From Sphingomonas bacterium (lineage in GTDB: Bacteria > Pseudomonadota > Alphaproteobacteria > Sphingomonadales > Sphingomonadaceae), in the NCBI GenBank assembly GCA_030149245.1, contig JASBRX010000036.1, positions 61,768 to 125,767 on the forward strand: a DNA stretch of 64,000 nucleotides, given 5' to 3'. Position 1 is the stretch's first letter. Each line of letters begins with the position of its first letter. The position numbers and the translations under genes were made by a program. The notes under the pieces were generated by a model. The model was given only the letters and a program-made list of their open reading frames with translations. It was not told the DNA's origin and searched no databases. This document shows, piece by piece, positions 1,281 to 32,496 of this stretch.

Positions 1281-1282
1281 CC

Positions 1283-2529: not shown

Positions 2530-2629
2530 GATCCTCTCCATTTTTCGTGGTTGCGGTATGTATGCCATGAGCGGGCGGGGCGACGCAACTTGCGCTGCGG
2601 CGCAGCATGCGCTAGGGGCCGCGACAGTC

Positions 2630-2800
2630 ATCTGGGGAGTAGCCAGCCGTCTTCGGACGGGCCTTCGCGTCAACATACTTGGTCGAGAGACCATGGCGCG
2701 AAGGGAGCGGCCGCATCACGCGGCGTTCGGGCGAGACCAATGGCGCCATGCTTTCCGTCCGGGCTGGGCGGAGGGGCGTGGTGTCGTTGGAATTCGCATC
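2630..2800 (+). ncRNA. yybP-ykoY (manganese) riboswitch
   Basis: CTGGGGAGTAGCC ... GCGTCAACATACTTGGTCGAGAGACC ... GCGAGACCAATGGCGC immediately upstream of a TMEM165/Gdt1 family gene, a known regulon partner. Confidence 0.82.
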
Positions 2801-2820
2801 CGCCCGGCCCGGAGACTGTC

Positions 2821-7925: not shown

Positions 7926-8114
7926 GGAAAACTGACCCCCGGCGCCGTACAACGAGGGCAGGGGCCTGCCGTCCAGTCCGAACGGCCGGTAGCCATGCGT
8001 CAGCCGGGCGCATGAACGCCTGACGCACGATACCGACGCGGCCCCCGCCGCTTGGTTCGTCGCTCAGACGGAGGACCGTGCCGCGGCCATTCCCTGGACC
8101 AAGGCAAGAGCGAC

Positions 8115-8310
8115 CCTGCGCCGGCAGGTCTCCTGGCTCGCGGGTCAGGGCGGGATGCACGGCCTTCCCGGGCGGTCGCCCAGTGGCTGTTCCCTCGAAC
8201 GGGGAACAAGTGCATCGCGCTCGCCGCTTACAGTTGCAGGGACAGCTGCGGATTTGGACGGCCAAGGCCGCCCGCACCGCATTCCCGTTTAAGCCCCTTT
8301 CGGGGCACCG
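8115..8310 (-). ncRNA. cobalamin riboswitch
   Basis: Minus strand: GGGAATGCGGTGCG near the 5' side and B12 box CGAGCCAGGAGACCTGCCGGCGC near the 3' side, upstream of btuB-like gene. Confidence 0.93.
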
Positions 8311-8421
8311 GCGCGATCATGAAACATGGGGTCGCCCCCAGGTTCCGAGTGGGTCCTTACGCCTGCTTATGGGGCTCGGCAAGCTTAATATAAAGAATTC
8401 TTTATATCCCGTAGACGCGGC

Positions 8422-8979
8422 TTAGCTTCCCGGCGCGGTGCCGGGGCGCAGATGAGCGAACATGTGCGCGACGTAATCGACCTTGCCCAGCTCAACCCCC
8501 TGTGCCCGCAGGATCGCATAGGCGGTCATCAGGTGGAAATAGAATTGCGGCAGCGCCCAATCGCGCACGAACTGCTCGGCCGTCAGGTCGAACACCATTC
8601 CTTGCGGTAGCGCGTGCGCGATCGGAGCCGCCGGATCGACCGCGGGCATACCGCCGCGGACCTGTTCCAGAAGCGCCAGTGTCTCGGCAATGCGCGCGCG
8701 GGCATCGGCGATCGTGCCCGGGCGCTCGCCAGCGTTGCGGCCTTCGTCGAGCAGCTCGGTGACCGCGGGCGGGAATGCCTCGCCGCGCAGGCGGTACACG
8801 CCCTCCTGCGCCTGAACGCAGGCAAAGCGGATCTGGGTCGCGAGCGGGAACATGTCGGGGGCGAGCCGCGCGGACATGATTGCGTCCCCGCTGCCCTGTG
8901 TATCCGCCTTGCCCAGCCATCCCGACAGCGCGCCAAGCATTTGAACATAGGTCGGAATGATCAGGTCGGGCAGGGTCAC
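8422..8979 (-). CDS. DUF1993 family protein
   Basis: Whole-length resemblance to DUF1993 (IPTYVQMLGALSGWLGKA ... YFHLMTAYAILRAQGVELGKVDYVAHM). Confidence 0.8.
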   Translation of the reverse strand: MTLPDLIIPTYVQMLGALSGWLGKADTQGSGDAIMSARLAPDMFPLATQIRFACVQAQEGVYRLRGEAFPPAVTELLDEGRNAGERPGTIADARARIAETLALLEQVRGGMPAVDPAAPIAHALPQGMVFDLTAEQFVRDWALPQFYFHLMTAYAILRAQGVELGKVDYVAHMFAHLRPGTAPGS

Positions 8980-9074
8980 GTTGGTCTCCTAAAGGCTATT
9001 GCGGGTCGGTTTAGGACAGGTTGTTGGCCGGTGCCATCAAATCCGGACTGACTGCATATACAGCCCGAAAAATA

Positions 9075-9089
9075 GAACATATAAAGAAC
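9075..9089 (+). promoter_or_regulatory. LexA box (alphaproteobacterial GAAC-N7-GAAC)
   Basis: GAACATATAAAGAAC just upstream of imuA. Confidence 0.88.
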
Positions 9090-9091
9090 AT

Positions 9092-9889
9092 ATGCGTGTC
9101 GATTCGCTCTCCTTGATTCAGCGGCGCATCGCGTTGATCGAGCGCGGTGGGCGGACCGCGAGCGAGGCTGCGGGGCATGTGCCGACCGGGCATGACCGGA
9201 TCGATCGCGCGCTGGGGGGCGGCGTCATGCGTGCGCGGGTGCATGAGCTGGTGGCGGAGAGCGAGGCGGCGGGCAGCGGGGCGGGGTTTGCCGGTGTGCT
9301 GGCGCATCGGCTGGGCGGCGAAATGATCTGGCTGCGCGAACGCGATGCCGAATTGCGCTGTGGCCAGCTGCACGCACCCGGTATCGCCGCGATCGGTATC
9401 GATCCGGCGCGGTTGCTGCTGGGCGTGTTGCCCGATGCGGCTTCCGTGCTGCGGGCGGCGGTGGACGCGGTGCGCTGTGCCGGGCTGGGCAGCGTGGTGA
9501 TCGAACTGTGGGGCAATCCGCGCGCCTATGACCTCACTGCCAGCCGACGACTGGCGCTGTTGGCAGAGGCGTCGGGAGTGACTGCGCTGCTGCTGCGGGT
9601 GGGCGGCGACGTTGCGCCCAGCGCGGCGCAGACGCGGATCGGCGTGGCGCCAGCCCCGTCGGTGCCGTTGGCGGCAGATGCGCCGGGACATCCGGCCTGG
9701 ACGGTCGAATTGCAACGCCAGCGCGGCCGACCGGCTGGTGGCATCTGGCGGGTGGAATGGGATCGGGAACACGGCCAATTACGGGATCAAGATCATGACG
9801 CAGCGACGCTATCTGGCGTTGTTCCTCCCCTTTCTGGCGACCGATCGACTGGTACGATCCGGGCCGCCGGACTCCGCCGCACGGGATAG
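9092..9889 (+). CDS. imuA: ImuA-like RecA-related mutasome protein
   Basis: GHDRIDRALGGGVMRARVHELVAES; position upstream of imuB-dnaE2. Confidence 0.88.
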   Translation: MRVDSLSLIQRRIALIERGGRTASEAAGHVPTGHDRIDRALGGGVMRARVHELVAESEAAGSGAGFAGVLAHRLGGEMIWLRERDAELRCGQLHAPGIAAIGIDPARLLLGVLPDAASVLRAAVDAVRCAGLGSVVIELWGNPRAYDLTASRRLALLAEASGVTALLLRVGGDVAPSAAQTRIGVAPAPSVPLAADAPGHPAWTVELQRQRGRPAGGIWRVEWDREHGQLRDQDHDAATLSGVVPPLSGDRSTGTIRAAGLRRTG

Positions 9890-11330
9890 CGCGCCGCGCG
9901 TCGTGGTCGAGCGGCAGCGCGGCGCGATCCGGCTGACCGCGTGCGACTCCGAAGCGATGGCGCTGGGGCTGGCCCCCGGCCTGACGCTGGCCGATGCGCG
10001 GGCGCGGGTGCCCGACCTGGCGGTAGCGGACGCCGATCCGGTCGCCGACCTGCTGTGGCTGGAGCGGATTGCCGATGCCTGCGACCGGTTCACGCCGCGC
10101 GTCGCGATCGAGCCGCCCGACGGGCTGGTGCTCGACATCACCGGCTGCGCGCATCTGTTCGGCGGCGAATATGGCTTGCTGGAGGCGGTCGAGGCGCGGA
10201 TGCGGCGCTGGACCGGGCATTTGCGCCATGCCCTGGCCGATACGCCGGAGGGTGCGCGGGCACTCGCGCGGTTTCAGACCGCCCCGGCCGCCAGCGAGGC
10301 GGCGGCGTTGCGGCGCCTGCCGGTCGCGGCGCTGGAGCTGGAGGGCGAGACCGAGGCGGCGTTGCGCGGCGCGGGCCTCAAGACCATCGACGACCTCGTC
10401 TCGCGCCCGACCGGGCCGCTGGCGGCGCGGTTCGGGGCCGAGCTGCCCGACCTGCTCGCGCGCATTCTGGGCAAGTCGGGCAAGCCGATCGCGCCGCGCC
10501 ACACTGCACCCGCCTGGCAGTTCGAACGCCGCTTTGCCGAGCCGATTGCGCGCGCCGACGATGCGTTGCGCGTCATCGGCGAACTGGCGGCGGAAGCGGG
10601 GCAGGCGATGGAGGCGCGTCGTCAGGGCGGGCGGCGCTTTACCGCGCGGCTGTTTCGCAGCGACGGGCATGTCGTCGATCTGGCGGTCGATTGCGGACAG
10701 CCGTTGCGCGATCCGGCGCGGATCATGCGGCTGTTTACCGAGCGGATCGGCGCATTGGCCGACCCGATCGATCCGGGGTTCGGGTTCGACATGATCCGCT
10801 TGTCGGTGCCGCGCGCCGAGCCGCTCGACTTTGCCCAGCTCGAACTGGAGGGCGGGGCGGTGCATGCCGAGGATGTCTCGGCATTGATCGACCGGTTGAG
10901 CGTGCGGGCGGGCAGCGGGCGCATCCGCCGCTTCGTGCCGCGCGACTCGCACATTCCCGAACAGGCGGTGCTCGCGCTGCCCGCGACCGCGAGCGACCGG
11001 CAGGACTGGCCCGCGCCGCCCCCGGGCGAACCGCCGCGCCGACCGATCCATTTGTTCGATCCGCCCCAGCGGGTCGAGGTGATCGCCGAAGAACCCGATG
11101 GCCCGCCGCGCAGCTTTCGCTGGCAACGCACATTGCACGAAGTGACCCGCTTTGAGGGGCCGGAGCGGATCGCCGCCGAATGGTGGCACCGCGCGCCGGG
11201 CGATCCCGGCCTGACCCGCGACTATTACCGGGTAGAGGATATGCGCGGGCGGCGCTTGTGGCTGTTCCGTCACGGTCTCAATGATGAGCGGCCCGCGCCG
11301 CTCTGGTATGTCCACGGCCTATTTGCATGA
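9795..11330 (+). CDS. imuB: ImuB, Y-family polymerase-like mutasome protein
   Basis: RYLALFLPFLATDRL start, VLDITGCAHLFGGE; imuA-imuB-dnaE2 order. Confidence 0.93.
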   Translation: MTQRRYLALFLPFLATDRLVRSGPPDSAARDSAPRVVVERQRGAIRLTACDSEAMALGLAPGLTLADARARVPDLAVADADPVADLLWLERIADACDRFTPRVAIEPPDGLVLDITGCAHLFGGEYGLLEAVEARMRRWTGHLRHALADTPEGARALARFQTAPAASEAAALRRLPVAALELEGETEAALRGAGLKTIDDLVSRPTGPLAARFGAELPDLLARILGKSGKPIAPRHTAPAWQFERRFAEPIARADDALRVIGELAAEAGQAMEARRQGGRRFTARLFRSDGHVVDLAVDCGQPLRDPARIMRLFTERIGALADPIDPGFGFDMIRLSVPRAEPLDFAQLELEGGAVHAEDVSALIDRLSVRAGSGRIRRFVPRDSHIPEQAVLALPATASDRQDWPAPPPGEPPRRPIHLFDPPQRVEVIAEEPDGPPRSFRWQRTLHEVTRFEGPERIAAEWWHRAPGDPGLTRDYYRVEDMRGRRLWLFRHGLNDERPAPLWYVHGLFA

Positions 11331-14300
11331 CCGGCTTTGCCGAGCTGGTCGCGGCGTCGCATTTCTCGTTCCTGCGCGGGGCGTCGCACCCGGCGGACCT
11401 GATTGGGTGCGCGATCGAGCTTGGCCTGACCGGCATCGGCATTGCCGATCGCAACACGGTGGCAGGCGTCGTCCGCGCCCAGCTGGCACTGCGTCACGCG
11501 CGGACGGCGGCGCAGGACGCTGGCCTTCCACCGCCAGCATTGAAGTTCGTTCCCGGCGCGCGGCTGGTGTTTGTCGACGGCACGCCGGACATCGTTGCCT
11601 ATCCCGCCAACCGGCGCGGTTGGGGGCGGCTGACGCGCTTGCTGACGACCGGCAATCTGCGCGCGCAAAAGGGTGACTGCATCCTGCGGCTGGAGGATCT
11701 GATCGCGTTTCACGACGATCTGCTGCTGATCGTCCTGCCCGGGTCGAGCGCGGTGGCGCAGCGCGCGCATCGCGATCCGGTCGCGCATGACAGCGACGCG
11801 CCGGTCCCGCCGCTCGCGTTGGTCCAGCCTGCGGGGTTGCAACCGCTGTTGACCCGGCTCGCGCGGATCGCGCCGGGGCGGGTGTGGCTGGGCGCGTGCA
11901 TGGCGCGGCGTGGCGACGATGCGCGGCGGCTGGCGGCGTTGCAGGTGCTGGCGACGTCCGCGGGCGTGCCGCTGATCGCGACTGCGGATGTGCTCTATGC
12001 CACGCCGGATTGCCGCCCGCTCCACGACATATTGACCTGCATCCAGGCCGGGGTGACGATCACCCAGGCCGGGCGGCGGCTGGAGGCGAATGCCGAGCGG
12101 CATCTGAAATCGCCGGAGGAAATGGCACGGCTGTTCGCAACCTGCCCCGACGCGATCGCGCAAACCGGGGTGCTGCTCGACCGGATCGGCTTCGACCTCG
12201 ATCAGCTGCGCTACGACTATCCGCACGAACCGGTGCCACAGGGCTGGGACGCGCAGGACTGGCTGGAGCATATCGTGATCGAGGCGGCCAAAGCACGCTA
12301 CGGCGCGGACCTGCCGGACAAGGTCACCGCGTTGCTGGCCGAAGAATTCACGCTGATCCGCGCGCGCAACTATGCCTTTTACTTTCTGACCGTCCACGAT
12401 CTGGTGAAGTTCGCGCGTAGTCAGCAGCCGCCGATCCTGTGTCAAGGGCGCGGCAGCGCGGCCAATTCGATCGTGTGTTTTCTGTTGGGTGTCACCTCGG
12501 TCGATCCGACCGAATATGATCTGCTCTTCTCGCGCTTCGTGTCGGAGGAGCGCGACGAGCCGCCCGACATCGACGTCGATTTCGAACATGAACGGCGCGA
12601 GGAGGTGATCCAGTATATCTATCGCCGCTATGGTCGCCACCGCGCGGCCATCGCCGCCACGGTGATCCATTATCGCCCGCGCAGCGCGGTGCGCGAGGTC
12701 GGCAAGGCGCTGGGGCTGAGCGAGGATGTCACGGCGCGGATCGTGAGCACGGTGTGGGGCAGCTTCAGCCGCGACCTGCCCGACAAGCGGGTCAGCGAGG
12801 CGGGGTTCGACCCGGAAGCGCCCGAAATCCGCCGCCTGATCGACCTGGCCGGCCAATTGCTCGCCGCACCGTTCCCGCGCCATCTGTCCCAGCATGTCGG
12901 CGGCTTCGTGCTGACGCAGGACCGGCTGGATGAAACGGTGCCGCTGCACCATGGCGCGATGGAGGGGCGCACCTTCATCGAATGGGACAAGGACGATATC
13001 GACGCGCTGTCGATCATGAAGGTCGATGTGCTCGCGCTCGGCATGCTGACCTGTATCCGCAAGGCGTTCGACCTGATCCGTGCGCAGGGGGAGGGAGATC
13101 ACACGCTGGAGGTCGATCTCCAGTCCGAAGATCCCGCCGTCTATGCGATGCTCCAGCGCGGCGACAGCGTCGGGGTGTTTCAGGTCGAAAGTCGGGCGCA
13201 GATGAACATGCTCCCGCGCCTCAAACCCCGCAATCTCTATGACCTGACCGTGCAGGTCGCGATCGTGCGGCCCGGGCCGATCGAGGGGGATATGGTCCAC
13301 CCCTATCTGCGGCGGCGCTGCGGGGAGGAGCGGGCAGAGTTCCCCTCGCCCAAACCGCCGCATGATCCCGATGAGCTGCGCACCCTGCTCGGCAAAACCT
13401 ATGGCGTGCCGATCTTTCAGGAACAGGCGATGAAGCTGGCGATCGTCGCGGCGGGCTTCACCCCGTCGGAAGCGAACCAGCTGCGCCGGGCAATGGCCAC
13501 GTTCCGCAATGTCGGCACGATCGGGCTGTTCGAAGCGAAGATGATCGATGGCATGGTCGCCAAGGGCTATACGGCGGACTTCGCCCAGCGTTGCTACAAC
13601 CAGATCAAGGGGTTCGGCAGCTACGGCTTTCCCGAAAGCCATGCGCTGTCCTTCGCGCGGCTGGTCTATGTGTCGTCGTGGATCAAATGCCATCATCCGG
13701 CTGCCTTCGCCTGCGCCTTGCTCAATTCGCAGCCGATGGGCTTTTACGCCCCGGCGCAGATCGTGCGCGATGCGCGCGAACATGGGGTGGAGGTGCGCGC
13801 GATCGACGTGAACCACAGCGGCTGGGACAATAGCCTGGAGCGCGATGCGGCGGGGGCGTTGGCGCTGCGGCTGGGCTTGCGCCAGATCGACGGGTTTCGC
13901 GTCGATTGGGCCGATGCGCTGGTGGCGACGCGCGCGGCGGGGCGGTTCGACGCGATCGAGCCGCTGGCACGTCGCGCCGATCTGCCCGCGCGCGCGCTGC
14001 GGCTGCTGGCCGATGCCGATGCCTATGGATCGCTCGGCCTGTCGCGGCGCGATGCATTGTGGGAGGCGCGGCGCACCCCGTCGGGCGAGCTCCCGCTGTT
14101 CGCCGCCGCATGCGCGCGCGAGCTTGGGACCGAACCGGCGATCGACCTGCCCGCCATGCCGCAAAGTGAAGAAGTAGCGGCGGATTACCAGACGATCCGC
14201 CTGTCGCTGAAAGACCATCCGATGACCTTCCTGCGCCCAGTGTTGAAGGCGGAAGGGGTGCTGAGCTGCGCCGAAACCAGCGCGGCAAAAGCGGGGCGCC

Positions 14301-14665
14301 GCGTGCGTACCGGCGGTGTCGTGCTGATCCGCCAGCGCCCGGGCAAGGGCAATGCCATCTTCATCACGATCGAGGATGAGACCGGCGTGACCAACGTCCT
14401 GCTTTGGGCGCGCCTGTTTGAAATCAACCGCCGCGCCGTGATGAGCGCGCGCCTGATGGTGGTTGAGGGCGAAGTTCAGCGCAGCAAGGAGGGCGTAGTC
14501 CACCTGATGGCGTCGCGCGTGTTCGACCGGACCGACCTGCTCCGCACCCTCGCCGACGAAGCGCCGCAGCCAGCGCTGTGCCGCCCCGATGAAGTCGCGC
14601 GCCCGGTCCAGAGCCGCCATCCGCGCGACGTTCGGATACTGCCGCGATCACGCGATTTTCATTGA
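11327..14665 (+). CDS. dnaE2: error-prone DNA polymerase DnaE2
   Basis: PHP N-terminus FAELVAASHFSFLRGASHP, CQGRGSAANSIVCFLLG, PDIDVDFEHERREEVIQYIYRRYGR, C-terminus HPRDVRILPRSRDFH. Confidence 0.96.
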   Translation: MTGFAELVAASHFSFLRGASHPADLIGCAIELGLTGIGIADRNTVAGVVRAQLALRHARTAAQDAGLPPPALKFVPGARLVFVDGTPDIVAYPANRRGWGRLTRLLTTGNLRAQKGDCILRLEDLIAFHDDLLLIVLPGSSAVAQRAHRDPVAHDSDAPVPPLALVQPAGLQPLLTRLARIAPGRVWLGACMARRGDDARRLAALQVLATSAGVPLIATADVLYATPDCRPLHDILTCIQAGVTITQAGRRLEANAERHLKSPEEMARLFATCPDAIAQTGVLLDRIGFDLDQLRYDYPHEPVPQGWDAQDWLEHIVIEAAKARYGADLPDKVTALLAEEFTLIRARNYAFYFLTVHDLVKFARSQQPPILCQGRGSAANSIVCFLLGVTSVDPTEYDLLFSRFVSEERDEPPDIDVDFEHERREEVIQYIYRRYGRHRAAIAATVIHYRPRSAVREVGKALGLSEDVTARIVSTVWGSFSRDLPDKRVSEAGFDPEAPEIRRLIDLAGQLLAAPFPRHLSQHVGGFVLTQDRLDETVPLHHGAMEGRTFIEWDKDDIDALSIMKVDVLALGMLTCIRKAFDLIRAQGEGDHTLEVDLQSEDPAVYAMLQRGDSVGVFQVESRAQMNMLPRLKPRNLYDLTVQVAIVRPGPIEGDMVHPYLRRRCGEERAEFPSPKPPHDPDELRTLLGKTYGVPIFQEQAMKLAIVAAGFTPSEANQLRRAMATFRNVGTIGLFEAKMIDGMVAKGYTADFAQRCYNQIKGFGSYGFPESHALSFARLVYVSSWIKCHHPAAFACALLNSQPMGFYAPAQIVRDAREHGVEVRAIDVNHSGWDNSLERDAAGALALRLGLRQIDGFRVDWADALVATRAAGRFDAIEPLARRADLPARALRLLADADAYGSLGLSRRDALWEARRTPSGELPLFAAACARELGTEPAIDLPAMPQSEEVAADYQTIRLSLKDHPMTFLRPVLKAEGVLSCAETSAAKAGRRVRTGGVVLIRQRPGKGNAIFITIEDETGVTNVLLWARLFEINRRAVMSARLMVVEGEVQRSKEGVVHLMASRVFDRTDLLRTLADEAPQPALCRPDEVARPVQSRHPRDVRILPRSRDFH

Positions 14666-14765
14666 GATCAAGCTCACGCGCACGACGGAGAAAGAGAGGT
14701 TTCTCGATTTTCCTAAAGGATGGAGATCCCGTGGCAGCTCAAAATGGCACTATCTATTTGATTTA

Positions 14766-14996
14766 TTAGTAAAATACTGCAAACGCAGCATTGATTCCGT
14801 CCCAGATATCATCAGGCTTGTTGGATGTATCTGCGCCGTTTGAGACGATCCCAAAGACAGAAGCAGCGTTTCTGGCACCGTACAAAACCGCAGTCGCCGT
14901 GCGTTGCGCGGCGCTAAGTGACGTAAACTGCCGTTGCAGACCATCTGCATTAGCGAAACCCGCAAAGTTTCCGAACGGCTGCCCACTCTGCATCAT
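14766..14996 (-). CDS. hypothetical small protein (76 aa), low-GC island edge
   Basis: ORF MMQSGQPFGNFAGFANADGLQRQFTSLSAAQRTATAVLYGARNAASVFGIVSNGADTSNKPDDIWDGINAAFAVFY; no recognised family. Confidence 0.35.
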   Translation of the reverse strand: MMQSGQPFGNFAGFANADGLQRQFTSLSAAQRTATAVLYGARNAASVFGIVSNGADTSNKPDDIWDGINAAFAVFY

Positions 14997-15179
14997 TGCC
15001 CGACGCCTTTGCGCATTGATGGAAACTGTCACACGGCAAATTCGCAGCATAATAATGAAAGATGTTACTTGGTAGCAGGGTTGATTCTCTCCAATCTTGA
15101 TGATTCCCCTTACTAAAGAATATTTCCGTACAAACAGTTGAGTGCTACGCTTAGGCTGCAATATTGTGAGGTGATGGCC

Positions 15180-15998
15180 ATGGGTATCATTCCAAACTGC
15201 AAGGACCCGACGCTTTCCGCAATAAAGTCAAAGGGCTATAACGTTGTTCGCCTACCGCGGATCGATATGGCGCCGACTCAGTTGCTGGTCGCAAACGGCA
15301 AGACGCTGCAGCGGCTGGGCGACCTTCTCTCAGTTTTCGTGCCCGACCCGGATGGTCCGCCGCCGCCGCCCATCAGCGCCGACCGCCCGGGCCCCAATAT
15401 CCAGGGCACGAAGTCCGCTGATATCGGGCTCGACATCGGGCTCAATATCCTCGGAGGTCTGATCGCTGCGTTGGGTGGATCGCAAATCGGTGTTAATTTC
15501 GCATACAAGCAGGCGCGATCGGTGCAGTTCGAGTTTGGCTCGACGCTGGAAAACAGTACTCAGCTTGCCCAGATTGACGCGTTCCTCGCCTCCGCCAAGA
15601 TCAACAGCTTCGCGCGCGCGGTCGCGCAGATGCTGGAGGCGGATAAGGTGTTCGTCGTCACCAGCACGCTCAAGTCGGCGAACCTGACGGTGGCCGCCAA
15701 GGACAGCCAGAACCACTCGCTGGGGCTCGATATGCCGGTGATCCAGAATGCAATTGGCGGCAACCTGAAGGTCACCTCGGCCTCTTCAGACAATTCGGTG
15801 GTCACGTATCAGGGCTCGGTGCCACTGGTGTTCGGCTTCCAGACGGTGCAGCTGATCTTCGACAACGGCAAGTACCGCACGATGAAGCTGGTCGATGCGG
15901 GATCGCGGGTGGCAGAGGCTGGGGCCATCGGCGCGATCGAAGCGCCGGGCGGACCCGACGCACCGGCAATGCTGGAAACCGAGGCGATGCTGGCTTGA
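15180..15998 (+). CDS. probable bacterial gasdermin (bGSDM) pore-forming protein
   Basis: About 272 aa; MGIIPNC N-terminus with an early Cys; GYNVVRLPRIDMAPTQLLVANGKTLQRLGDLLSVF; hydrophobic Gly/Ala segment GLNILGGLIAALGG; FVVTSTLKSANLTV; VPLVFGFQTVQLIFDNGKYRTMKLVDAG; short C-terminal tail; protease genes directly downstream. Confidence 0.8.
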   Translation: MGIIPNCKDPTLSAIKSKGYNVVRLPRIDMAPTQLLVANGKTLQRLGDLLSVFVPDPDGPPPPPISADRPGPNIQGTKSADIGLDIGLNILGGLIAALGGSQIGVNFAYKQARSVQFEFGSTLENSTQLAQIDAFLASAKINSFARAVAQMLEADKVFVVTSTLKSANLTVAAKDSQNHSLGLDMPVIQNAIGGNLKVTSASSDNSVVTYQGSVPLVFGFQTVQLIFDNGKYRTMKLVDAGSRVAEAGAIGAIEAPGGPDAPAMLETEAMLA

Positions 15999-16045
15999 TG
16001 CATGGGCCGTGTGCCCAACGGCGCGCGGTTTCGGTGGGGGTGTGA

Positions 16046-17194
16046 ATGGGATTGTTCACCTTTGGCGAACTGAATGAAATCGTGCAGCGCGCGATCCAGG
16101 CAGGGCTCGCCGCACGCCGCGAAAGCCTGTTGTTCGCGTTCCCGCCCGGGTTTGTCGCAGCACTTTCCGGATGGGGGCAAAGCAATCCCGCCGATGCGCT
16201 GAGAGCTGATCTCGGGCAGCTCAACGACCTGGACCAGCCTGTCGGCGGTGAAATCCCGATGGTGATGTGGCTGGGCAACGCCCATTCGACCACTGCGGCG
16301 ACAAGGCCGGCGGACGCCAAATACTTCAACGCGAAGGCGCTCCTCGCCGCGGAGCGCGCCGCCGCGCAGAACGGGCCCGTTACACCGGCGCCGTCAGTCG
16401 CCGCCGCCCTGACGGCGCTGACCATTCCCCAACTCGTCCTGTTCCGCAACGATCTGCTGCCCGACAGCTTCTTCAAGCTGGCGGCCGAGCGCGCCCAATC
16501 GGTCGCGCGGCTGACGGTCTATGCGTATCAGGACGGCAACCAACGCCTCCTCCCTTCCGGCAATCCGGACGGGGTCTACGGCACGGCGTGGCTGATCGGC
16601 GCGAGGCATCTGATCACCAACTGGCATGTCGTCACGGCGCGGCAGGATGGCGAGGCGCCACCCGGTCAGGCCGACATCGATCTGCAGGTCGCCAATATGC
16701 GTATCGAGTTCGATCTTATCGCGCCCGGAGCGATGACCCATATGGCGCTTGCGGCGCGGCTGGCGCACGGCAATGCGGCGCTCGATTATGCCGTCATCGA
16801 ACTGACCCAGCCAGAACCGCGCAGCGTCTTCCCGCTCGCCTCCACACTGCCGACGATCAGTGGCACCGATCCGCTGGCCGCGAACATCATTCAGCATCCC
16901 GCAGGCGAGCCGCGCCAATATGGCATCCGCGACAATCTGGTAGCCGTGGTCCAGGGCGACGACCTTGCCTATTTCACCGATACCAAAGGTGGGTCATCCG
17001 GTTCGCCGGTGTGCGACGATCAGTGGCGCGCGCTGGCGCTCCACAAGGCGACGACCGCGCAGCTGGGGAACTTCACCTTCCAGGGCAAGCAGACGGCGTG
17101 GATCAACATCGGCACGGTCATGCCGGCGATCATGGCCGACCTGAAGACCAAACAGCCTGCGCTGTGGGCCGCCATCGGCGCGAAGGTGGTCTGA
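16046..17194 (+). CDS. EAD/death-like adaptor domain + trypsin-like serine protease
   Basis: N-term FGELNEIVQRAIQAGLAARRESLLFAFPPGF...LNDLDQPVGGEIPMVMWLGNA; protease triad contexts TNWHVV, LDYAVIEL, GGSSGSPV. Confidence 0.85.
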   Translation: MGLFTFGELNEIVQRAIQAGLAARRESLLFAFPPGFVAALSGWGQSNPADALRADLGQLNDLDQPVGGEIPMVMWLGNAHSTTAATRPADAKYFNAKALLAAERAAAQNGPVTPAPSVAAALTALTIPQLVLFRNDLLPDSFFKLAAERAQSVARLTVYAYQDGNQRLLPSGNPDGVYGTAWLIGARHLITNWHVVTARQDGEAPPGQADIDLQVANMRIEFDLIAPGAMTHMALAARLAHGNAALDYAVIELTQPEPRSVFPLASTLPTISGTDPLAANIIQHPAGEPRQYGIRDNLVAVVQGDDLAYFTDTKGGSSGSPVCDDQWRALALHKATTAQLGNFTFQGKQTAWINIGTVMPAIMADLKTKQPALWAAIGAKVV

Positions 17195-17198
17195 GGCG

Positions 17199-18530
17199 AT
17201 GACAAAGCTGCTCGATTTCAACGCGCTTACAACCCTTTGCGAACGGGCGATCGAGGCCGGACTTGCGCCACCTCCGCGTGATGCGCTTTTCCTGGGATTT
17301 GACGCGGCCGTCAAAGCTGCCACCTTTTCAGACGCCGCGCCGGGTGACGCCCTGAAGATCGAAATCGACCGCCTGAACGGCTATATCGATCCGATCGAAG
17401 GCGACATCTATTTCCTGGCAATGTGGCTGATCAACGCAGCGAACAAGGTCAACGCTACCCGGCCAGAGACTGCAGGATTTTTCCGAAACCTGGCGGACAG
17501 GGTCAATGCCATTCCCCGCCCGGCACCGGCAACGGGTGTAACCACCGCAGCGCTGATCCCGGGCGCACGCGCTGAAGCGCTGATCAACCCGGCCGTCGGC
17601 GCGGCCGTGCAGATCCTGCGTGGATCAATGCCGGGAATGAACCGCAGAGCTACCAATCTGATGGTGAGCAAGCGGATGCATGACGCTCTACATCATATCC
17701 AGCTTTATACGCTGCCAATGTGGTCCGCGAGCGTGGCGGCATTGTCGAGCAGTCCCGATTACGCCCGGCAGATGGTGGAGGACAAGCATCGGGAACTGAG
17801 AGATAAGAGCGAGGCTCTACCCGGTGAGTTCGGCTTTCTTTCGACCAATGAAACGCTGCGAGCTGTCGCACAGCAGACGACCGACGCCCTGCTCTCGGCC
17901 GCCGCCGCCGCCGACACGGCGCTTGCCGCGGGCGATGCGGACGGCCTGAAGTCCGTGATCGCAAAGGTTCGTGACATCGTAAAGGCGGCCATGCCGGTTT
18001 ATGCGGGCAAGATGGACAGTTACCAGGAAGGTCTCGATCTTTCTGAGCTGGTCGCAAGCCTTACCATCATCGCTCAAAATTCGTCCGACGACGCGCTGAA
18101 CGCGAACGCAAGCCGCCTCGCCAGTTCGCTGACGACAATCATCCAGGACCTTAGCGTCATCGGGACCCAGCACAGCGAATGGCAGCTGCTGGACATGCGC
18201 CTCGGCGCGCTCGAAAACTGGTTCGGTTTCCTGCATCTGGGGCCGAGCGTCTACGCCTCGTTCAACCTGGACTGGGACGCAGTCCATTCCGCCATTGAGA
18301 CCCTGTCGAGTCAGGGGCCAAGTGAACGCTTCGATCCAGTCAAGCGGCTGCGTGAAGCCTTTCTGCAAATTTGCCCTGTGCCCATCCAAGGCGCTCCTGA
18401 GAAAGAGGCGACGAAGGCGTTCGTCGACTTCGTGATCCAGGCGCGCACGGTGTTCTACGGGGTGGACGTCCGCATGAAGCAAATCTGCAACCAGCTGCGC
18501 GAAATGACCAATCTGCTGGCGCAATTGTAA
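17199..18530 (+). CDS. EAD/death-like adaptor domain protein with uncharacterised helical C-terminal region
   Basis: N-term FNALTTLCERAIEAGLAPPPRDALFLGFDAAV...LNGYIDPIEGDIYFLAMWLINAANKVNATRPE aligns with N-term of the adjacent protease; remainder unassigned. Confidence 0.7.
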   Translation: MTKLLDFNALTTLCERAIEAGLAPPPRDALFLGFDAAVKAATFSDAAPGDALKIEIDRLNGYIDPIEGDIYFLAMWLINAANKVNATRPETAGFFRNLADRVNAIPRPAPATGVTTAALIPGARAEALINPAVGAAVQILRGSMPGMNRRATNLMVSKRMHDALHHIQLYTLPMWSASVAALSSSPDYARQMVEDKHRELRDKSEALPGEFGFLSTNETLRAVAQQTTDALLSAAAAADTALAAGDADGLKSVIAKVRDIVKAAMPVYAGKMDSYQEGLDLSELVASLTIIAQNSSDDALNANASRLASSLTTIIQDLSVIGTQHSEWQLLDMRLGALENWFGFLHLGPSVYASFNLDWDAVHSAIETLSSQGPSERFDPVKRLREAFLQICPVPIQGAPEKEATKAFVDFVIQARTVFYGVDVRMKQICNQLREMTNLLAQL

Positions 18531-18540
18531 GGACCGCGAA

Positions 18541-20163
18541 ATGTACCGGGTTGCCTTCGAGGAAAATCAGGCTGAGCCATTCGCATCGCCGGTGGAGGGC
18601 GAGCAGGCGCATATCAAGCTGGTCGAGCGGGTACGCGAGATAGAGGCCGCGATCAGTACAGTCGATACACCGCCTGCCGGTGCGATCGACAGTCTCGCTC
18701 AACTGCGGGACGACATTGCCGTCTATGAGGCCCGGCTGGTCGCGTCTGGCGCCCATATGCCCGAAGGCAGCCGGCGCGATCTTTCCCAGAGCGTTTTGGA
18801 TTTTTGGGCGCTCCGCCAATCCGATCTTGCGGCGCTGGCGGCTCGCTATTCTCCGAACGAGCAGACAATGGTCCGGCAGGAGTTGCCCGCGGCCAAACTG
18901 CTTGCGCCCTATGATGAGGCAACTGCCGTCGCTGCCGCGGCCAAGGCCGAGGAATGCTATGTCGCGCTGCCCGACGATTCGGCGCGCGACGCGGCGCGCG
19001 GCGCCTTCCTCTCTCTCCTGCAGCGCAACGCTCCGCTCTCGCCCCCGGAAATCGCGGCGCTGGAGCCGTTCGCCGAGGCGGGTGTGCTCAGTCGATTGCC
19101 CACCGATGTGCTGGAGCCGGGCTATGATCTGGGGCACGAAGCACTTCCGCAGGCTTGGCAGAGGCTTGCCGAGTGGCAGCTCCAGGCGGCGAAGGTCCTT
19201 AGCGATCTGGATCGGGTACGAAGCAGCGCGCAGGCGTGGACGGAGACCAAGAGCTTCTCCGAATTGCCCCAGGGGCCGGCGGTCGATGTGGTCGCCAAGT
19301 TGGCCGAGCATGACGATTCGTTGAAGGAATATGCCGCTGCTGCCTACCGCCGCCGCACGCGCGCGCGCGCAATTGCGTGGGCAGCCGGGGTGATCTTCGC
19401 TGTTGCGCTTATTGGTGTCGGCACCTTAACTGTCCTCCTCACCTCGCGCCGGCCATCGCCCCCGGGCACGTCCATAGCGGCTGAATTCCAGGCCACGCAG
19501 AACGAGGCTTCGGAAGAGGTCATCGTCTCCGATCAGCCGCAGTCCGGCAAATCCGATACGGCGCAAGGTTCCACGGGCTGGATCTGGCTCGGTTCCACTG
19601 CGCTTCCGCAGGTGACGCTTGAAAACGGCACGCTGGCGGATCCGGCCGGCTTCAAGGGCGGGATGAAAGTGCGGACCCGCGCCAACCTCAAGATTCGTCA
19701 ACGCGGGCCAGAAGACAATGGCGAGAATATCGCCGGAGACCGGATCGGCCAGGTGTCGAGCGACGTGATCGTAGAATTGAAAAAGACGACGTCGGTGACG
19801 GTTGATGGCGTGGAGCAATATTGGGCCGAGGTACGGGTGATCCCGGTCGTGTATGTCCAGCGCTTCAGGGCAGCGGACCTGCGCATGGCCGAACTCCGGA
19901 AGGCGTTGGCGGACCGCGGCTTTCCGGCCCTGTACGAGCAGAAGCTCGACAGGATCGTGCAGGTCGACCCCGGACTGCCCTTCGACGTTCGCTACTATTA
20001 CGAGCAGGATAAGCAGGCGGCGAGCGAGGTGGCCGGCATCTTGCTACGCTGGCTTGGCAACGAACGCGTGCCGGTGGACAGAACCCTGTTCCCCCTGGTC
20101 GACACGCCAATCGCCGAACGGGTGAAAACCGGGACGATTGAAGTTTGGCTTTACCAGCGTTGA
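18541..20163 (+). CDS. membrane protein resembling the C-terminal tail of STAND NTPases (no NTPase domain) with SH3-like extra-membrane region
   Basis: GYDLGHEALPQAWQRLAEWQ resembles the HEALL-x-WPRL-xx-WL motif of nSTAND proteins; RRRTRARAIAWAAGVIFAVALIGVGTLTVLL TM; RTRANLKIRQRGP...IGQVSSDVIVEL SH3-like. Confidence 0.6.
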   Translation: MYRVAFEENQAEPFASPVEGEQAHIKLVERVREIEAAISTVDTPPAGAIDSLAQLRDDIAVYEARLVASGAHMPEGSRRDLSQSVLDFWALRQSDLAALAARYSPNEQTMVRQELPAAKLLAPYDEATAVAAAAKAEECYVALPDDSARDAARGAFLSLLQRNAPLSPPEIAALEPFAEAGVLSRLPTDVLEPGYDLGHEALPQAWQRLAEWQLQAAKVLSDLDRVRSSAQAWTETKSFSELPQGPAVDVVAKLAEHDDSLKEYAAAAYRRRTRARAIAWAAGVIFAVALIGVGTLTVLLTSRRPSPPGTSIAAEFQATQNEASEEVIVSDQPQSGKSDTAQGSTGWIWLGSTALPQVTLENGTLADPAGFKGGMKVRTRANLKIRQRGPEDNGENIAGDRIGQVSSDVIVELKKTTSVTVDGVEQYWAEVRVIPVVYVQRFRAADLRMAELRKALADRGFPALYEQKLDRIVQVDPGLPFDVRYYYEQDKQAASEVAGILLRWLGNERVPVDRTLFPLVDTPIAERVKTGTIEVWLYQR

Positions 20164-20191
20164 AGTAGCTGCCCCCGCGAGGAGGATCACG

Positions 20192-22960
20192 ATGGCCAAT
20201 GACAAGGGGCTGCCCGCCGCCCGCTTTGCCCGCACACTGCTAGCGAAGGCCGCGCCGGGCGGAGGGCACCGGACTGAGGCCGCGGGCCTGGCATCGGCGG
20301 GGGAACTGGCCGAGGCTGTGGGTCCTTCGGTGGAAGAGTTGGTCCCGAAGTCGGTACCCGAAGGCTTTTCACGCGATGAGGTGGAGGCGGTTGCGCGCAA
20401 GCTGCTCGTCACCGACGAGCTTAGCCCGCGCGAGACCTTCGTCACCGAGGCGATCATCATTCCCGACTTGCGCCCTGCGGTGTTCGTGACCGGCAACGAC
20501 TATGCGATCGATCACCCGGCATGGACCGACTATGTCGCGGGCACGCCCGCGCACGCCAATTTCTGCCGGGCGATTCCGTCGGTCGGGCGGATCGAACTGA
20601 TCGGGAATCCGAGCCTGCCGTTCGGAGGAACCGGCTTCGTCGTCGCGCGGGATCTGGTGATGACCAACCGCCACGTCGCATCGCTGTTCGCGGCCGGCAT
20701 TGGCGTGCGCAACCTGCGTTTTCAGGACCAGCTGGGTGCGGCGGTCGATTTCGTGCGCGAACATGGCCAATCGTCCGGCGGCACGCCGTTCGCGGTACGC
20801 GATATCGTGATGATCCACCCCTATTGGGATCTGGCGCTGCTGCGCGTTGAAGGCCTTGAAGATCGCGAGCCGTTGACGTTCGCGACCTATGAGCCGGATC
20901 CCGCCAAGCCGCGACGTATCGCCGTGATCGGCTATCCCGCGTTCGACCCGCGCAACGATGCCAGCGTACAGAATCAAGTGTTTCACGGCGTCTACAACGT
21001 CAAGCGGCTGCAGCCGGGCCTGTATAACGGGCGCCGCAAGATCGACAGCTATGGCAAGCTGGTCGATGCCGGGACCCATGACAGCTCCACACTGGCTGGC
21101 AATTCCGGTTCGGTAGTGGTCGAGGCCGACGGTGGCCAAGTCGTCGGGCTGCACTTTGCGGGGATCTACAAGGACAGCAACTTCGCGGTGCCGGCAGTCG
21201 ATCTGGCGCGCGATCCGCGGATGATCGACGCCGGCTTGAAGTTCGCGCCGGGAGCGGAAGCGAGCAGCGGGCCGTGGGACATCTTTTGGGCCGCAACATC
21301 GTCGGTCGGGAATGAATTCGGCACGGCGCAAAGAGGGCAGGCGGTGATGGCGGAACAAGGCAAGACCATAAGGCTGACGGTGCCGGTGGAAATCGAGCTT
21401 TCCATCGGCGTGACCGGTGCGAGCATTGCGGGCGCGACGGCGGCGGTGGGCGGTGGTGCGCTGACCGAGAAGATGGTCGAACCCTTCCACGATCCGATCG
21501 AGCTGCCGCGTGAGGGCTATGATCCCGGCTTCCTGGGCATCGCCGTGCCCATGCCCGTGCCGCGCCGCCCGAACGAATGCGCGCAGCTGGCCGATGGGTC
21601 GAACGAGCTGAAATATTATAACTTCTCGATCGTGATGAACGCTGGCCGGCGCTTGGCACTCTTCGCCGCGTCGAACGTGGATGCGCGGGCAGTGGCGAAG
21701 GAGCCGGAGCCCGGCCACAAATATACGCGTGCCGGCCTGAGCGGGCTGGACGAAGGCGATGTCGAGAAGTGGTTCACCGACCCGCGCATCCGCGGCATCG
21801 AGCAGCTGCCCGACCGTTTCTTCACCAAAGATCGCAAGGCGTTCGACAAGGGCCATATCGTCCGACGCGAGGATGTGGCGTGGGGCGGGAGCTTCTCCGA
21901 AGTGCGCCGTGCCAATGGTGATACCTATTTCGTCACCAATTGCTCGCCGCAGACCGCCGGGTTCAACCGTTCGAACCGGAAGGACAATTGGGGCGCGCTC
22001 GAGGATCTGGTGCTAAAGCAGGCAAAGGCCGAGAAATACTGCCTGTTCGCCGGGCCTGTGCTGCACGCGGCTGATCCCGAATTCACCGGGGTCGATGATT
22101 TCGGCGGCGTCAAGGTCCGTATTCCGCAGAAATATTGGAAGGTCGTTGTCGCGCGCGCCGGGAACGCGCTCAAGAGCTTCGCCTTCGTGCTCAATCAGGA
22201 CGTCTCGCAGACGCCGATGGAGTTCGCGGTGCCGGCGACCTGGCAGCGGCATATGGTCAGGCTATCGGACTTGCAGGCGGAGCTGGACAGCCTCGATTTC
22301 GCGCCGGAACTGATAGCGGCCGACCAGTATGACGCCGTGCGCGATGGCAGCGAAACCGCCGCGCTGGACTCGGTAATGGAGGCAATCATCGCGATGGCCC
22401 CGGCCGAAGTCGTGACGGAAGGACCTCCGCGCCAGCACGGCCGCTTCGTTGGCTTGCCGCTGCAAGTGGCATTCAACACCGATCAGGACGAGCGCCGCTC
22501 GGCCCAGCTGCTCTCGCCGCTAAGCTATTTCCAGCCCGACGAGTCCGAATGGCCGGTACCGGCGGATGCCAGACTTGATGGCGCCTCGATCCCCAGGCCG
22601 TTCTGGTCCGTGATTGGTGGGCCATTCGAGGGACTCTACCTCGAGGCTTCGGTGGTTCACGATTACTATTGCGACCATCATGTGCGCCCATGGCGCGACG
22701 TCCACCGGATGTTCTACGATGCGATGCTGTGCCGCGGGGTCGGCGGATTCTGGGCACGGATCATGTATTATGCGGTCTACCGCTTCGGGCCACGATGGGA
22801 GATGGTCGAGGGCCTAGGGTCGGTCGCCATCCCGGCCGAGGCCCTCACGGACGACAAGGCGCCGTCCATTCTGGCCGACGCGAAAATTCTGGTGCACGAT
22901 CTGCCGCGTGAAATGATCGAGGCACTTGCCGAAAAGAGCGCTGCGAAAGCGGGACGGTAG
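20192..22960 (+). CDS. trypsin-like protease + EndoG/NucA-type nonspecific nuclease + DUF1353 fusion
   Basis: Triad contexts MTNRHVASL, WDLALLRVE, LAGNSGSVVV; nuclease motif KAFDKGHIVRREDVAWG with FNRSNRKDNWGALED; C-term LDGASIPRPFWSVIGGPFEGLYLEASVVHDYYCDHH; RBS GGAGG at 20181. Confidence 0.85.
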   Translation: MANDKGLPAARFARTLLAKAAPGGGHRTEAAGLASAGELAEAVGPSVEELVPKSVPEGFSRDEVEAVARKLLVTDELSPRETFVTEAIIIPDLRPAVFVTGNDYAIDHPAWTDYVAGTPAHANFCRAIPSVGRIELIGNPSLPFGGTGFVVARDLVMTNRHVASLFAAGIGVRNLRFQDQLGAAVDFVREHGQSSGGTPFAVRDIVMIHPYWDLALLRVEGLEDREPLTFATYEPDPAKPRRIAVIGYPAFDPRNDASVQNQVFHGVYNVKRLQPGLYNGRRKIDSYGKLVDAGTHDSSTLAGNSGSVVVEADGGQVVGLHFAGIYKDSNFAVPAVDLARDPRMIDAGLKFAPGAEASSGPWDIFWAATSSVGNEFGTAQRGQAVMAEQGKTIRLTVPVEIELSIGVTGASIAGATAAVGGGALTEKMVEPFHDPIELPREGYDPGFLGIAVPMPVPRRPNECAQLADGSNELKYYNFSIVMNAGRRLALFAASNVDARAVAKEPEPGHKYTRAGLSGLDEGDVEKWFTDPRIRGIEQLPDRFFTKDRKAFDKGHIVRREDVAWGGSFSEVRRANGDTYFVTNCSPQTAGFNRSNRKDNWGALEDLVLKQAKAEKYCLFAGPVLHAADPEFTGVDDFGGVKVRIPQKYWKVVVARAGNALKSFAFVLNQDVSQTPMEFAVPATWQRHMVRLSDLQAELDSLDFAPELIAADQYDAVRDGSETAALDSVMEAIIAMAPAEVVTEGPPRQHGRFVGLPLQVAFNTDQDERRSAQLLSPLSYFQPDESEWPVPADARLDGASIPRPFWSVIGGPFEGLYLEASVVHDYYCDHHVRPWRDVHRMFYDAMLCRGVGGFWARIMYYAVYRFGPRWEMVEGLGSVAIPAEALTDDKAPSILADAKILVHDLPREMIEALAEKSAAKAGR

Positions 22961-23018
22961 GTGATCGCCGCAGCGAGTTCATCGGCTTGAAGGCGGTGAG
23001 CTACCCGTGCCGCTATAG

Positions 23019-23398
23019 ATGAGTAAATCCGCGAGGACCGCCGTCGGGGTCCGTTACCTCCTCGCCGTCGTCGACGACTTTGCATGCAAGAGTCTGGCGC
23101 TGGTGGTGGACACGTCACTGTTGGGCGCTGGTGTTGCGTACCAACCCGATGCGATCATCACGGTGCGTGGCCGGCCGCTGGTGATCGTCAGCGACAGCGG
23201 GATCGATCTGACGATCCTGGCGATCCTGCGCTGGGCGCAGGACCGGCAGATCGAGCGGCACTACATCGCGCCGGGCAAGCCACGGCAGAACGGCTACGTC
23301 GGGAGCGTCAATGATAGCTTGCACGTCAATCGCTGCGGGGCCGTTCCTTACCTCGTGAAAGAGCATCGAGTACGCCCCGACAAACGAGCATGACGACG
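23019..23398 (+). pseudogene. IS3-family transposase OrfB (rve) remnant
   Basis: YLLAVVDDFACKSLALVVDTSL...RPLVIVSDSGIDLT...HYIAPGKPRQNGYVGSVNDSL; catalytic Glu context (GFVESFNG) changed to GYVGSVND; truncated both ends. Confidence 0.8.
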
Positions 23399-23466
23399 TC
23401 ACATCGGGGACAATGAATCCGGGCAGGCTTCTCGACCGCGGTCGAGTCGCATGCGCGTGGTGTGTT

Positions 23467-24267
23467 TCATTTATCTTCCGCGTACAATTTGTTCAGGAGA
23501 TGATCGATCGCATATTGCCCGACTTCATTGAGCGTCCGCTCTTCGAATTCCTGGATCAGCTGTAGCGCCAGCACGAGTACCGAGGCGAGCACGAGTGCGA
23601 TGAAGGTGGTATTGAAAGCGAGGCTCAGGTCGCCGATCGTCACTTCGAGCATCTTCTGGAACTGTTCCGGATCCTGCGGATTCATGCCCTTCATTCCCGC
23701 CAGGCCGCGCGAGAGGCCCCAGACCGTGCCGATGAAGCCGACCGTCGGCAGCAGCCAGGTGAGGTAGCGCGAGAGATTGTAGCCGAGGTCGAGCTCGTGC
23801 TGCTGGAGTTCGAGCGTCGAATCCATGATCTCTGCGGCGAGCCCGATCGAACGCGTGCCCTGGAACTGCCAGATCACGCGGAGCAGCAGGCGCTGGAGAT
23901 AATGGTCCCGGCCGGTCGCCCGGATGCTGCGCGCGATCCCGGGCAGAGCGCGTGGATCGATCATCGCGTCGTCGCGCTCGGGGAGCAGGCTGCGGCCAAG
24001 CTGTTTCCGCTCCGCGCGCGCGTGCAGATAGCGCCCGGCAAGCTCGCCGCAACCGATGCCGAACACCAGCCATTCGAGGCAGCTGATCGTCACCGGGAAC
24101 GGCGGAACCGCCCCGTCTCGGTAGTCGAACAGGAGGATCGCGAGCCAGCTGCCCTTCGGCAACAGCGCGCCTGCAGCGACGATCGCGATGCCGAGCGCCA
24201 GGCCGCCGAGGCGAAAGAGAGTCTGCGTGGGCGGCTTTCGCTTTGCGGCTTCGATGTTGCTGCTCAT
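23467..24267 (-). CDS. MotA/TolQ/ExbB proton-channel family protein
   Basis: YLTWLLPTVGFIGTVWGLSRGLAGM ... VTIGDLSLAFNTTFIALVLASVLVL. Confidence 0.8.
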   Translation of the reverse strand: MSSNIEAAKRKPPTQTLFRLGGLALGIAIVAAGALLPKGSWLAILLFDYRDGAVPPFPVTISCLEWLVFGIGCGELAGRYLHARAERKQLGRSLLPERDDAMIDPRALPGIARSIRATGRDHYLQRLLLRVIWQFQGTRSIGLAAEIMDSTLELQQHELDLGYNLSRYLTWLLPTVGFIGTVWGLSRGLAGMKGMNPQDPEQFQKMLEVTIGDLSLAFNTTFIALVLASVLVLALQLIQEFEERTLNEVGQYAIDHLLNKLYAEDK

Positions 24268-24295
24268 CCTTCCCCCTTTTGACGTGCGGTGCGAG

Positions 24296-25111
24296 TCATT
24301 CAGCCATCGCGATCAGCAGCGAAAGCGCGAACGAGGAGCCGGGTGCGGGCACCTTGCCGTTCCCCCGCTGCGCGAGTTCGGAGTAGAAGCTCATGGTGGT
24401 GGCGGAGTCGCCCTCGACGAACGCCGAGAGGCGCGCGCCGCTGCCCCCCCACGCGGTCGCGAACGCGAAGGCCTGGGCGATCTCGTCGGCGCTGCGCGGG
24501 GGGTTGTCGCCGATCACGACGATGAAGCGGTTGTCCGGGTTCGCCTTCCAGTCGAGCCCGCGCGCCGCGATCAGACCGCCCAGGACCTGCTCCTCCGCTT
24601 CCTCGTTGGTGCACGGGACGCCGGCCTCGAGCGAGTTGGCGAACGACTGGAGCTGCTGGAGGCCATTCGCGTCGATCAGCGTGAGCGGCTGGACGCGGAC
24701 CGCCGCGCTGCCCATGCAATAGTCCTTATATTCGACGATCGCGATGCGCGCCTGGTCCGTCAGCTTGTTCAGGATCATTGAAAGGCTGCGTATCTCCTCC
24801 TTGAGGCGGCCGATGGGCTGCTGCATCGATGCGGTCGTGTCGATCACGATGGCGATGTCGGTCGCCCGCTGCTGCAGGCCGCGCTTGAGCTCTTCGATCG
24901 CGGCGTCGCGCTCGGTTTCGGCCTTGCTGAGCTGTTCCTTGAGCGTCTGGTTCTCGCGCTTGATCGCGGCGACCTCCTCCGCCTTGGGGCCTAGGTTCGG
25001 GGCGAACAGCGAGAAGAGGATCGCGAGGAACATGAACGCGCCCAGCGCGGAGCAGAACATGTCGAGCGCCGACATGCTGACGATATTGATTTCGCGCGAT
25101 CGGATCTTCAA
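24296..25111 (-). CDS. TolR/MotB-like membrane anchor + coiled coil + von Willebrand A-like domain
   Basis: EINIVSMSALDMFCSALGAFMFLAILF TM; DIAIVIDTTASMQQPIGRLKEEI MIDAS-like motif. Confidence 0.75.
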   Translation of the reverse strand: MKIRSREINIVSMSALDMFCSALGAFMFLAILFSLFAPNLGPKAEEVAAIKRENQTLKEQLSKAETERDAAIEELKRGLQQRATDIAIVIDTTASMQQPIGRLKEEIRSLSMILNKLTDQARIAIVEYKDYCMGSAAVRVQPLTLIDANGLQQLQSFANSLEAGVPCTNEEAEEQVLGGLIAARGLDWKANPDNRFIVVIGDNPPRSADEIAQAFAFATAWGGSGARLSAFVEGDSATTMSFYSELAQRGNGKVPAPGSSFALSLLIAMAE

Positions 25112-25695
25112 CGTACGCGATCCATCGCCACCGCCCGAGTCAGCTCGTATGGCAAGACGGCCTTGCGGGGATGGGACGCCGCGTCCGGCAGCAGGTCGAC
25201 GCCCGCCGCGCGCAAGACTCGCCAGGCAAGCTCCGTGCAGTAAATCCGCGAAGGCTCGCCGAGGTCGAAGGCGAAATCGTAAAGTAGTTTCCGGCCGCGC
25301 AGCGCCTCAACCGAGCGGCGCACGGCCCGGTCGAAACGCGCCCGCGCGTCTGCGCCGTGCCATCGCACGCGCATGACGCGATAGTCGCCGTTGCGGGCGA
25401 AGCGGATGAAGTCTTCGACTGGTTCGGTCTGCACGGCGCCGTGCGGCCCGCCGGGAAGCGCGTGCACCACCTGCCACGCGCCGCCGCTCCGGTAGATCAC
25501 CCCCACATGCGAATAGCCATTGCCGACGATGCTCAGCATGCGGGTCTCGATGCCGAACCCGGTCCGAAAGATTAGGTCCCCGTTCCGCAGCGCATTGGCA
25601 GGGAGCGCGCGCGCCGCAGGCGCGGAGTGGACGGCCGCGGTGGTGGTGAGGCCTGCGACGAGCGCGATGGCCATCAGCGGCACGAGCGGCCTCAT
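25108..25695 (-). CDS. YiiX/YebB-like (permuted NlpC/P60 papain-fold) hydrolase
   Basis: NGDLIFRTG...YSHVGVIYRSGGAWQVVHALPGG...IYCTELAWRVLRAAG; signal peptide. Confidence 0.75.
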   Translation of the reverse strand: MRPLVPLMAIALVAGLTTTAAVHSAPAARALPANALRNGDLIFRTGFGIETRMLSIVGNGYSHVGVIYRSGGAWQVVHALPGGPHGAVQTEPVEDFIRFARNGDYRVMRVRWHGADARARFDRAVRRSVEALRGRKLLYDFAFDLGEPSRIYCTELAWRVLRAAGVDLLPDAASHPRKAVLPYELTRAVAMDRVR

Positions 25696-26288
25696 GGGTG
25701 CATCCATCCCGGCATGCGCCGCAATATCGCCTGGCGCTTGGGGGCATGCCACAGCGCCCGGAACGCCTTCGCGGTCTCGATGATCGAGAACACATATATC
25801 AGCCATGCGGCGAGCACGAAGAAAGCGCCGACCACCCAGCCGAAGCCGCCCAGCGCATCGAGCCATCTGGAGAACTTCTCCATGTTGCTCAGCGTCTTGA
25901 AGCCGCCCATGAAGTGCGGGAGGATGAGATAGGCAAAGAAGAAGAACCAGCCGACTAGGGCAGGAAAGCCGGCGAGGAACAGCAGCCCGTGCCGACGCGT
26001 CCATCGCCGCGGCCTTTGCTCCATCAGGCCACAATAGGCGAGGAAGAACGGCATTCCGACAAGGAAGAAGAAGCCGGCGATCAATAGGCCCGTCGCCAGT
26101 ATCTCGAACATCATGCCGATCGCGCCGCCCCCCTCCCGGGGGTATGCTAGCATGCTGCCCTGGACGAACAGCGCGAGCGCGATGCCGGCATAGGACAGGA
26201 CGGTCAGCAGCCCCGCCAGCACGATCGCGACGATCCCGGGGATCCGGCCGGCAGGCGGCGTCGAAGGCGAATGCGTGGATGCCATCAT
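25692..26288 (-). CDS. multi-pass membrane protein of unknown function
   Basis: Several hydrophobic segments; overlaps flanking operon genes. Confidence 0.65.
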   Translation of the reverse strand: MMASTHSPSTPPAGRIPGIVAIVLAGLLTVLSYAGIALALFVQGSMLAYPREGGGAIGMMFEILATGLLIAGFFFLVGMPFFLAYCGLMEQRPRRWTRRHGLLFLAGFPALVGWFFFFAYLILPHFMGGFKTLSNMEKFSRWLDALGGFGWVVGAFFVLAAWLIYVFSIIETAKAFRALWHAPKRQAILRRMPGWMHP

Positions 26289-26303
26289 GCGATTCCGTTT
26301 CGT

Positions 26304-29736: not shown

Positions 29737-29791
29737 GATTCCCCCTCATGTTCAGTTGCAAACTCATCTGTCTGGTCGTGATTCGTCAATA

Positions 29792-31093: not shown

Positions 31094-31094
31094 G

Positions 31095-32488: not shown

Positions 32489-32496
32489 GCTTCCTC

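Follow-up and report, generated by a model that had tools for sequence, protein, structure and literature searches.

Effector-associated domains (EADs) couple the components of bacterial conflict systems, and the EAD5 family has been predicted to be a mixed alpha+beta domain (Kaur et al. 2020, PMC7159879). System 3 NucA-trypsin of the same study is an alphaproteobacterial-type operon in which a trypsin-NucA fusion accompanies an EAD-trypsin. In the CARD-NLR gasdermin system of Lysobacter enzymogenes and in LypABC of Caulobacter, a trypsin carries an N-terminal helical docking domain and a second trypsin is present, which in LypC is fused to an endonuclease (PMC13236601). The CARD of LypA binds LypB, and lysis needs two trypsins (PMC13236601). 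Bacterial gasdermins are known to adjoin their activating proteases, and a Cys conserved at their N-terminus is reportedly palmitoylated (PMC9079055). Within the literature searched, no paper named a gasdermin together with an effector-associated domain.

We analyzed a 64,000-nucleotide stretch of DNA from a Sphingomonas bacterium (the window) that encodes a putative operon with features of each of these systems:

15180..15998 (+): bacterial gasdermin (bGSDM), about 272 aa; PADLOC, NCBIfam NF051890 and PDB 7n51/8sl0 matches
16046..17194 (+): EAD5-Trypsin_2 protease, 382 aa; Pfam EAD5 and Trypsin_2
16046..16372 (+): EAD5 domain of the protease, about residues 1-108; Pfam and AF2 model
17199..18530 (+): EAD5-helical adaptor-like protein, 443 aa; BLASTP, Pfam score of its orthologue, hydropathy and model
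17199..17525 (+): EAD5 domain of the adaptor-like protein, about residues 1-104; BLASTP, custom profile and EAD5 match
18541..20163 (+): 540-aa membrane protein with a STAND winged-helix region and no NTPase; Pfam nSTAND1 and hydropathy
20192..22960 (+): Trypsin_2 - Endonuclease_NS (NucA-type) - DUF1353 protein, 922 aa; Pfam and motif check

In the ORF list all five genes run in one direction, separated by short gaps. The gasdermin gene lies 5' of the protease gene on the same strand, 47 nt away, and the protease and adaptor ORFs, which are as originally described, are 4 nt apart. The sequence shows a tight operon with a gasdermin, two EAD5 domains, intact catalytic motifs in both proteases and a conserved core of four genes.

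The two EAD5 domains are homologous. The N-termini of the protease and the adaptor-like protein are identical at 35 of 94 residues (37%; BLASTP, 55 bits, E=1e-12), the similarity is confined to the N-termini, and the domain pair scores z=19.2 against shuffled sequence. Pfam EAD5 (PF19957) matches the protease at 3.5e-12 (46.7 bits; cut-off 27). The full-length adaptor ORF gave no EAD5 report at E<=1, and its EAD alone does match EAD5, as do all 46 of the 46 EAD domains at E<=1. A custom profile matches the adaptor EAD at 3e-21. The adaptor reaches the EAD5 cut-off only through its orthologue from a Porphyrobacter MAG (locus L016; 57% identical, 28.3 versus 27 bits), whereas the protease passes it directly. 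Taken together, the BLASTP alignment, the shuffling score and the EAD5 matches indicate true homology rather than chance. These data bear out two claims of the original prediction, that the adjacent proteins share a homologous N-terminal domain and that this domain is an EAD. The second copy sits in the adjacent gene on a different module. An analysis of four-way site patterns showed no clear evidence that gene conversion had acted between the copies, with two within-locus sites. A weak further EAD5 match, below the cut-off, occurs elsewhere in the same genome (L002, G000:C7:38729-38893; E=0.001), and a search of 399 genomes of the phylum returned only weak extra matches.

The protease matches Trypsin_2 at 3.9e-14, and its triad (H194/D247/S318) is invariant in five homologues. 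Its EAD5 was modeled by AF2 as an all-helical domain of six helices (pLDDT 95.7). The best PDB match is the CARD-CARD disk 5wvc, which is not significant (E=0.94, TM 0.43-0.45), and one of the 46 EAD5 members matches bDLD1 at 0.0044. The model therefore differs from the earlier alpha+beta prediction (PMC7159879) and points to an all-helical docking domain for EAD5, possibly with a death fold, for which the PDB match is not significant. No significant CARD match was obtained for the protease by Pfam or PDB structure search; the domain is EAD5.

After its EAD5 and a linker, the adaptor-like protein continues as an all-helical region of about 325 aa, which has no Pfam match and no recognized catalytic domain. 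The model places long helices after the EAD (pLDDT 84.5, pTM 0.65), and the helical part shows a partial resemblance to four-helix ligand-binding domains (match to 6s3b, E=1.3 despite a probability of 0.98). That this region might be a sensor is a guess, the structural matches being weak. The protein carries none of the recognized core components VMAP, iSTAND, Ubl and GAP1. In the 540-aa protein, residues 125-237 align with positions 251-375 of Pfam nSTAND1 (27.7 bits versus a cut-off of 27.1; 32.8 bits for its L016 orthologue), covering the STAND winged-helix region with an HEAL..W.RL..W motif. Hydropathy places one TM helix near residues 282-300, and by eye the C-terminal half looks SH3-like. 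The 922-aa protein combines Endonuclease_NS (3.5e-29) and Trypsin_2 (2.2e-17) in one chain and contains TNRHV, GNSGS, DKGH and NRSNRKDNWGALE. No Walker A or NTPase motif was found in the five operon proteins, and no STAND profile matched an NLR-like STAND ATPase in window positions 9001-27000.

The assignment to the gasdermins, which are pore-forming death proteins, is supported by a PADLOC bGSDM match (1.5e-76), a NCBIfam NF051890 score of 211.8 bits (cut-off 100) and matches to PDB 7n51/8sl0 of about 1e-41. The ORF opens with TTG at 15138, and the likely start is the ATG at 15180, with GAGG 8 nt upstream. Cys7 aligns with Cys4, the N-terminal Cys of PDB 7n51. The original prediction had missed this gene beside the EAD5 pair.

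The operon shares with CARD-NLR systems and LypABC a trypsin with a helical docking domain at its N-terminus and a second trypsin, and with the L. enzymogenes system a gasdermin effector (PMC13236601). Unlike those systems, it docks through EAD5 instead of CARD and has no NLR/STAND ATPase, encoding instead the EAD5-helical protein and the NTPase-less winged-helix membrane protein. As in EAD-coupled conflict systems of the EAD5 family (PMC7159879), one EAD occurs twice in adjacent genes, once on an effector-type enzyme, but the window lacks a VMAP, iSTAND, Ubl or GAP1 core and has a gasdermin. With System 3 it has in common a trypsin-NucA fusion together with an EAD-trypsin; it differs by using EAD5 rather than EAD1 and by the added gasdermin and winged-helix membrane protein. 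The pairing of a bGSDM with a protease recalls the operons with caspase-like or trypsin-like proteases of Johnson et al. 2022, as described in PMC9079055; the window protease differs in bearing EAD5 and in being paired with a second EAD5 protein. The locus thus joins bacterial gasdermins with EAD-coupled conflict systems, which were unlinked in the literature searched.

Rhizobial plasmids and 80 genome loci yielded full-length EAD5-trypsin homologues, and a scan of viral contigs returned one distant protease. In the Porphyrobacter MAG the last four genes are intact (69, 57, 52 and 71% identity in gene order) and are flanked by unrelated genes, one for an SDR and one for a P450. No gasdermin was found in that genome. 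Since the four-gene core is kept there without a gasdermin, it is the core that forms a conserved unit; the gasdermin is an addition to it and looks like a swappable effector. The adaptor ORF alone retrieved no relatives from genome contigs or plasmids, and from 385 genomes of the class it retrieved one weak match (30%, residues 80-237). A two-sequence adaptor profile found none outside the window's own genome in a 251-genome family search.

We compared 85 EAD5-trypsin loci, mostly from Streptomyces and phylogenetically related. Where a second EAD5 is missing, a STAND NTPase is adjacent or fused in 72 of 76 loci; where a second EAD5 is present, STAND occurs in one of nine, by a weak match (Fisher p=9e-8, which overstates significance because the loci are related and not independent). 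Outside actinobacteria, the corresponding counts are 11/12 and 1/9 (p=4e-4, likewise overstated by relatedness). The second EAD5 protein therefore seems to replace the NLR-like partner. This pattern predicts that the killing protease can be recruited with or without an NTPase platform, and this exclusivity, together with the gasdermin context, is what is new here. The second EAD5 is carried by a VMAP core protein (L011), a CHASE2 protein (L022), a trypsin (L017 and L018), an unclassified protein (L028, L013 and L014) or, in the window, the helical protein. Twenty-two Streptomyces loci encode STAND, EAD5 and trypsin in a single chain (L031, 5873-11134, and similar loci), and these natural fusions suggest that STAND and EAD5-trypsin cooperate.

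The EAD of the partner is closest to that of its own protease, ranking first of 85, in the window, L016, L011 and L028. Five pairs that are more distant (L013, L014, L017, L018 and L022) do not show this preference. Overall the cognate is the best match in four of nine pairs (permutation p=0.0008; 0.009 for seven less redundant pairs).

We consider it fairly probable that the locus is an inflammasome-like abortive-infection operon in which the gasdermin kills and the EAD5 pair docks in place of CARD. The helical part of the adaptor, acting by itself or together with the membrane winged-helix protein, would sense infection or envelope damage, and the triggered adaptor would expose or cluster its EAD5. 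EAD5-EAD5 contact would then collect the EAD5-protease, which could cut the C-terminal tail of the gasdermin, either itself or through activation of the trypsin-NucA protein. Released gasdermin would form pores, the NucA domain would cleave nucleic acid, and the infected cell would die. By analogy with EAD coupling (PMC7159879) and with LypABC and CARD-NLR systems (PMC13236601), gathering of the protease by the adaptor and a cascade to gasdermin cleavage is the most likely mechanism. We infer both the contact between the adaptor and protease EADs and the gasdermin cleavage and cell killing by the operon. The original prediction that the adaptor recruits and clusters the protease is plausible: it fits the published EAD principle, the conservation of the operon in Porphyrobacter, the cognate best matches and the replacement of STAND by a second EAD5. 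The best reading is a logic like that of CARD-NLR systems, built from different parts. More tentatively, and with rather less confidence, the operon could be an NTPase-free bacterial inflammasome, its STAND/NLR sensor replaced by the EAD5-helical sensor and the membrane-anchored, NTPase-less STAND winged-helix protein; gasdermin activation would then proceed by EAD5 clustering without nucleotide switching.

The adaptor and protease domains might instead not dock with each other, each binding a third partner, such as the membrane winged-helix protein, or self-assembling separately, and their likeness would then reflect duplication only. The 72 of 76 loci with STAND and no second EAD5 favor such a reading, since EAD5 can evidently work with a partner that lacks EAD5, or with no partner at all. 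It is nonetheless somewhat unlikely, because the second EAD5 occurs almost only where STAND is missing and because at four loci the closest match is the cognate copy. Slightly less likely again is that the adaptor is a negative regulator whose EAD5 caps that of the protease. Much as a decoy CARD-only protein would, the cap would hold the protease EAD5 in monomeric form until a trigger binds the helical region or that region is removed. The same anatomy, with no recognized catalytic domain, would serve this role equally, and a cap could be useful because the operon encodes a lethal effector. The VMAP core component in the same position at L011 speaks against a cap, pointing to an activating core there.

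The presence of the four genes without a gasdermin in Porphyrobacter is compatible with the gasdermin being an unrelated neighbor of a four-gene EAD5/NucA module that acts by nucleic-acid cleavage, and trypsin-NucA systems are already a known kind (PMC7159879). The only known orthologous operon has no gasdermin, so the functional link of the gasdermin is drawn from one locus and a different operon, L041. We nevertheless regard an unrelated neighbor as improbable. The gasdermin gene is codirectional and 47 nt away, and bacterial gasdermins are known beside their activating proteases (PMC9079055). At L041 (Solibacteraceae MAG, 232-11167), a gasdermin is likewise on the same strand as an EAD5-trypsin, the row being gasdermin, caspase, trypsin-hydrolase, small ATPase, STAND NTPase and EAD5-trypsin. 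Acting on the gasdermin next door is likely the purpose of the EAD5 protease.

Two other gasdermin candidates were seen. A gasdermin-like BLAST match in Streptomyces (L077, E=0.002) was rejected because the gasdermin profile did not confirm it. At L099 (9419-10249), a second gasdermin in the same order belongs to a different operon without EAD5.

Past the operon, a convergent cluster (23467-33536, -) encodes MotA/ExbB-like, vWA, C92 amidase, Ser/Thr kinase, PP2C, trypsin-FHA and several FHA proteins. It has no counterpart at the Porphyrobacter locus and was therefore left out of the operon; it looks like a separate signaling or defense module. On the other side, a small divergent ORF (14766-15161, -) in the AT-richer gap ahead of the gasdermin gene may encode a small regulator or be a chance reading frame. 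By eye from the ORF list, the gene immediately 5' of the gasdermin (11327-14665, +) is a dnaE2-like error-prone polymerase gene.
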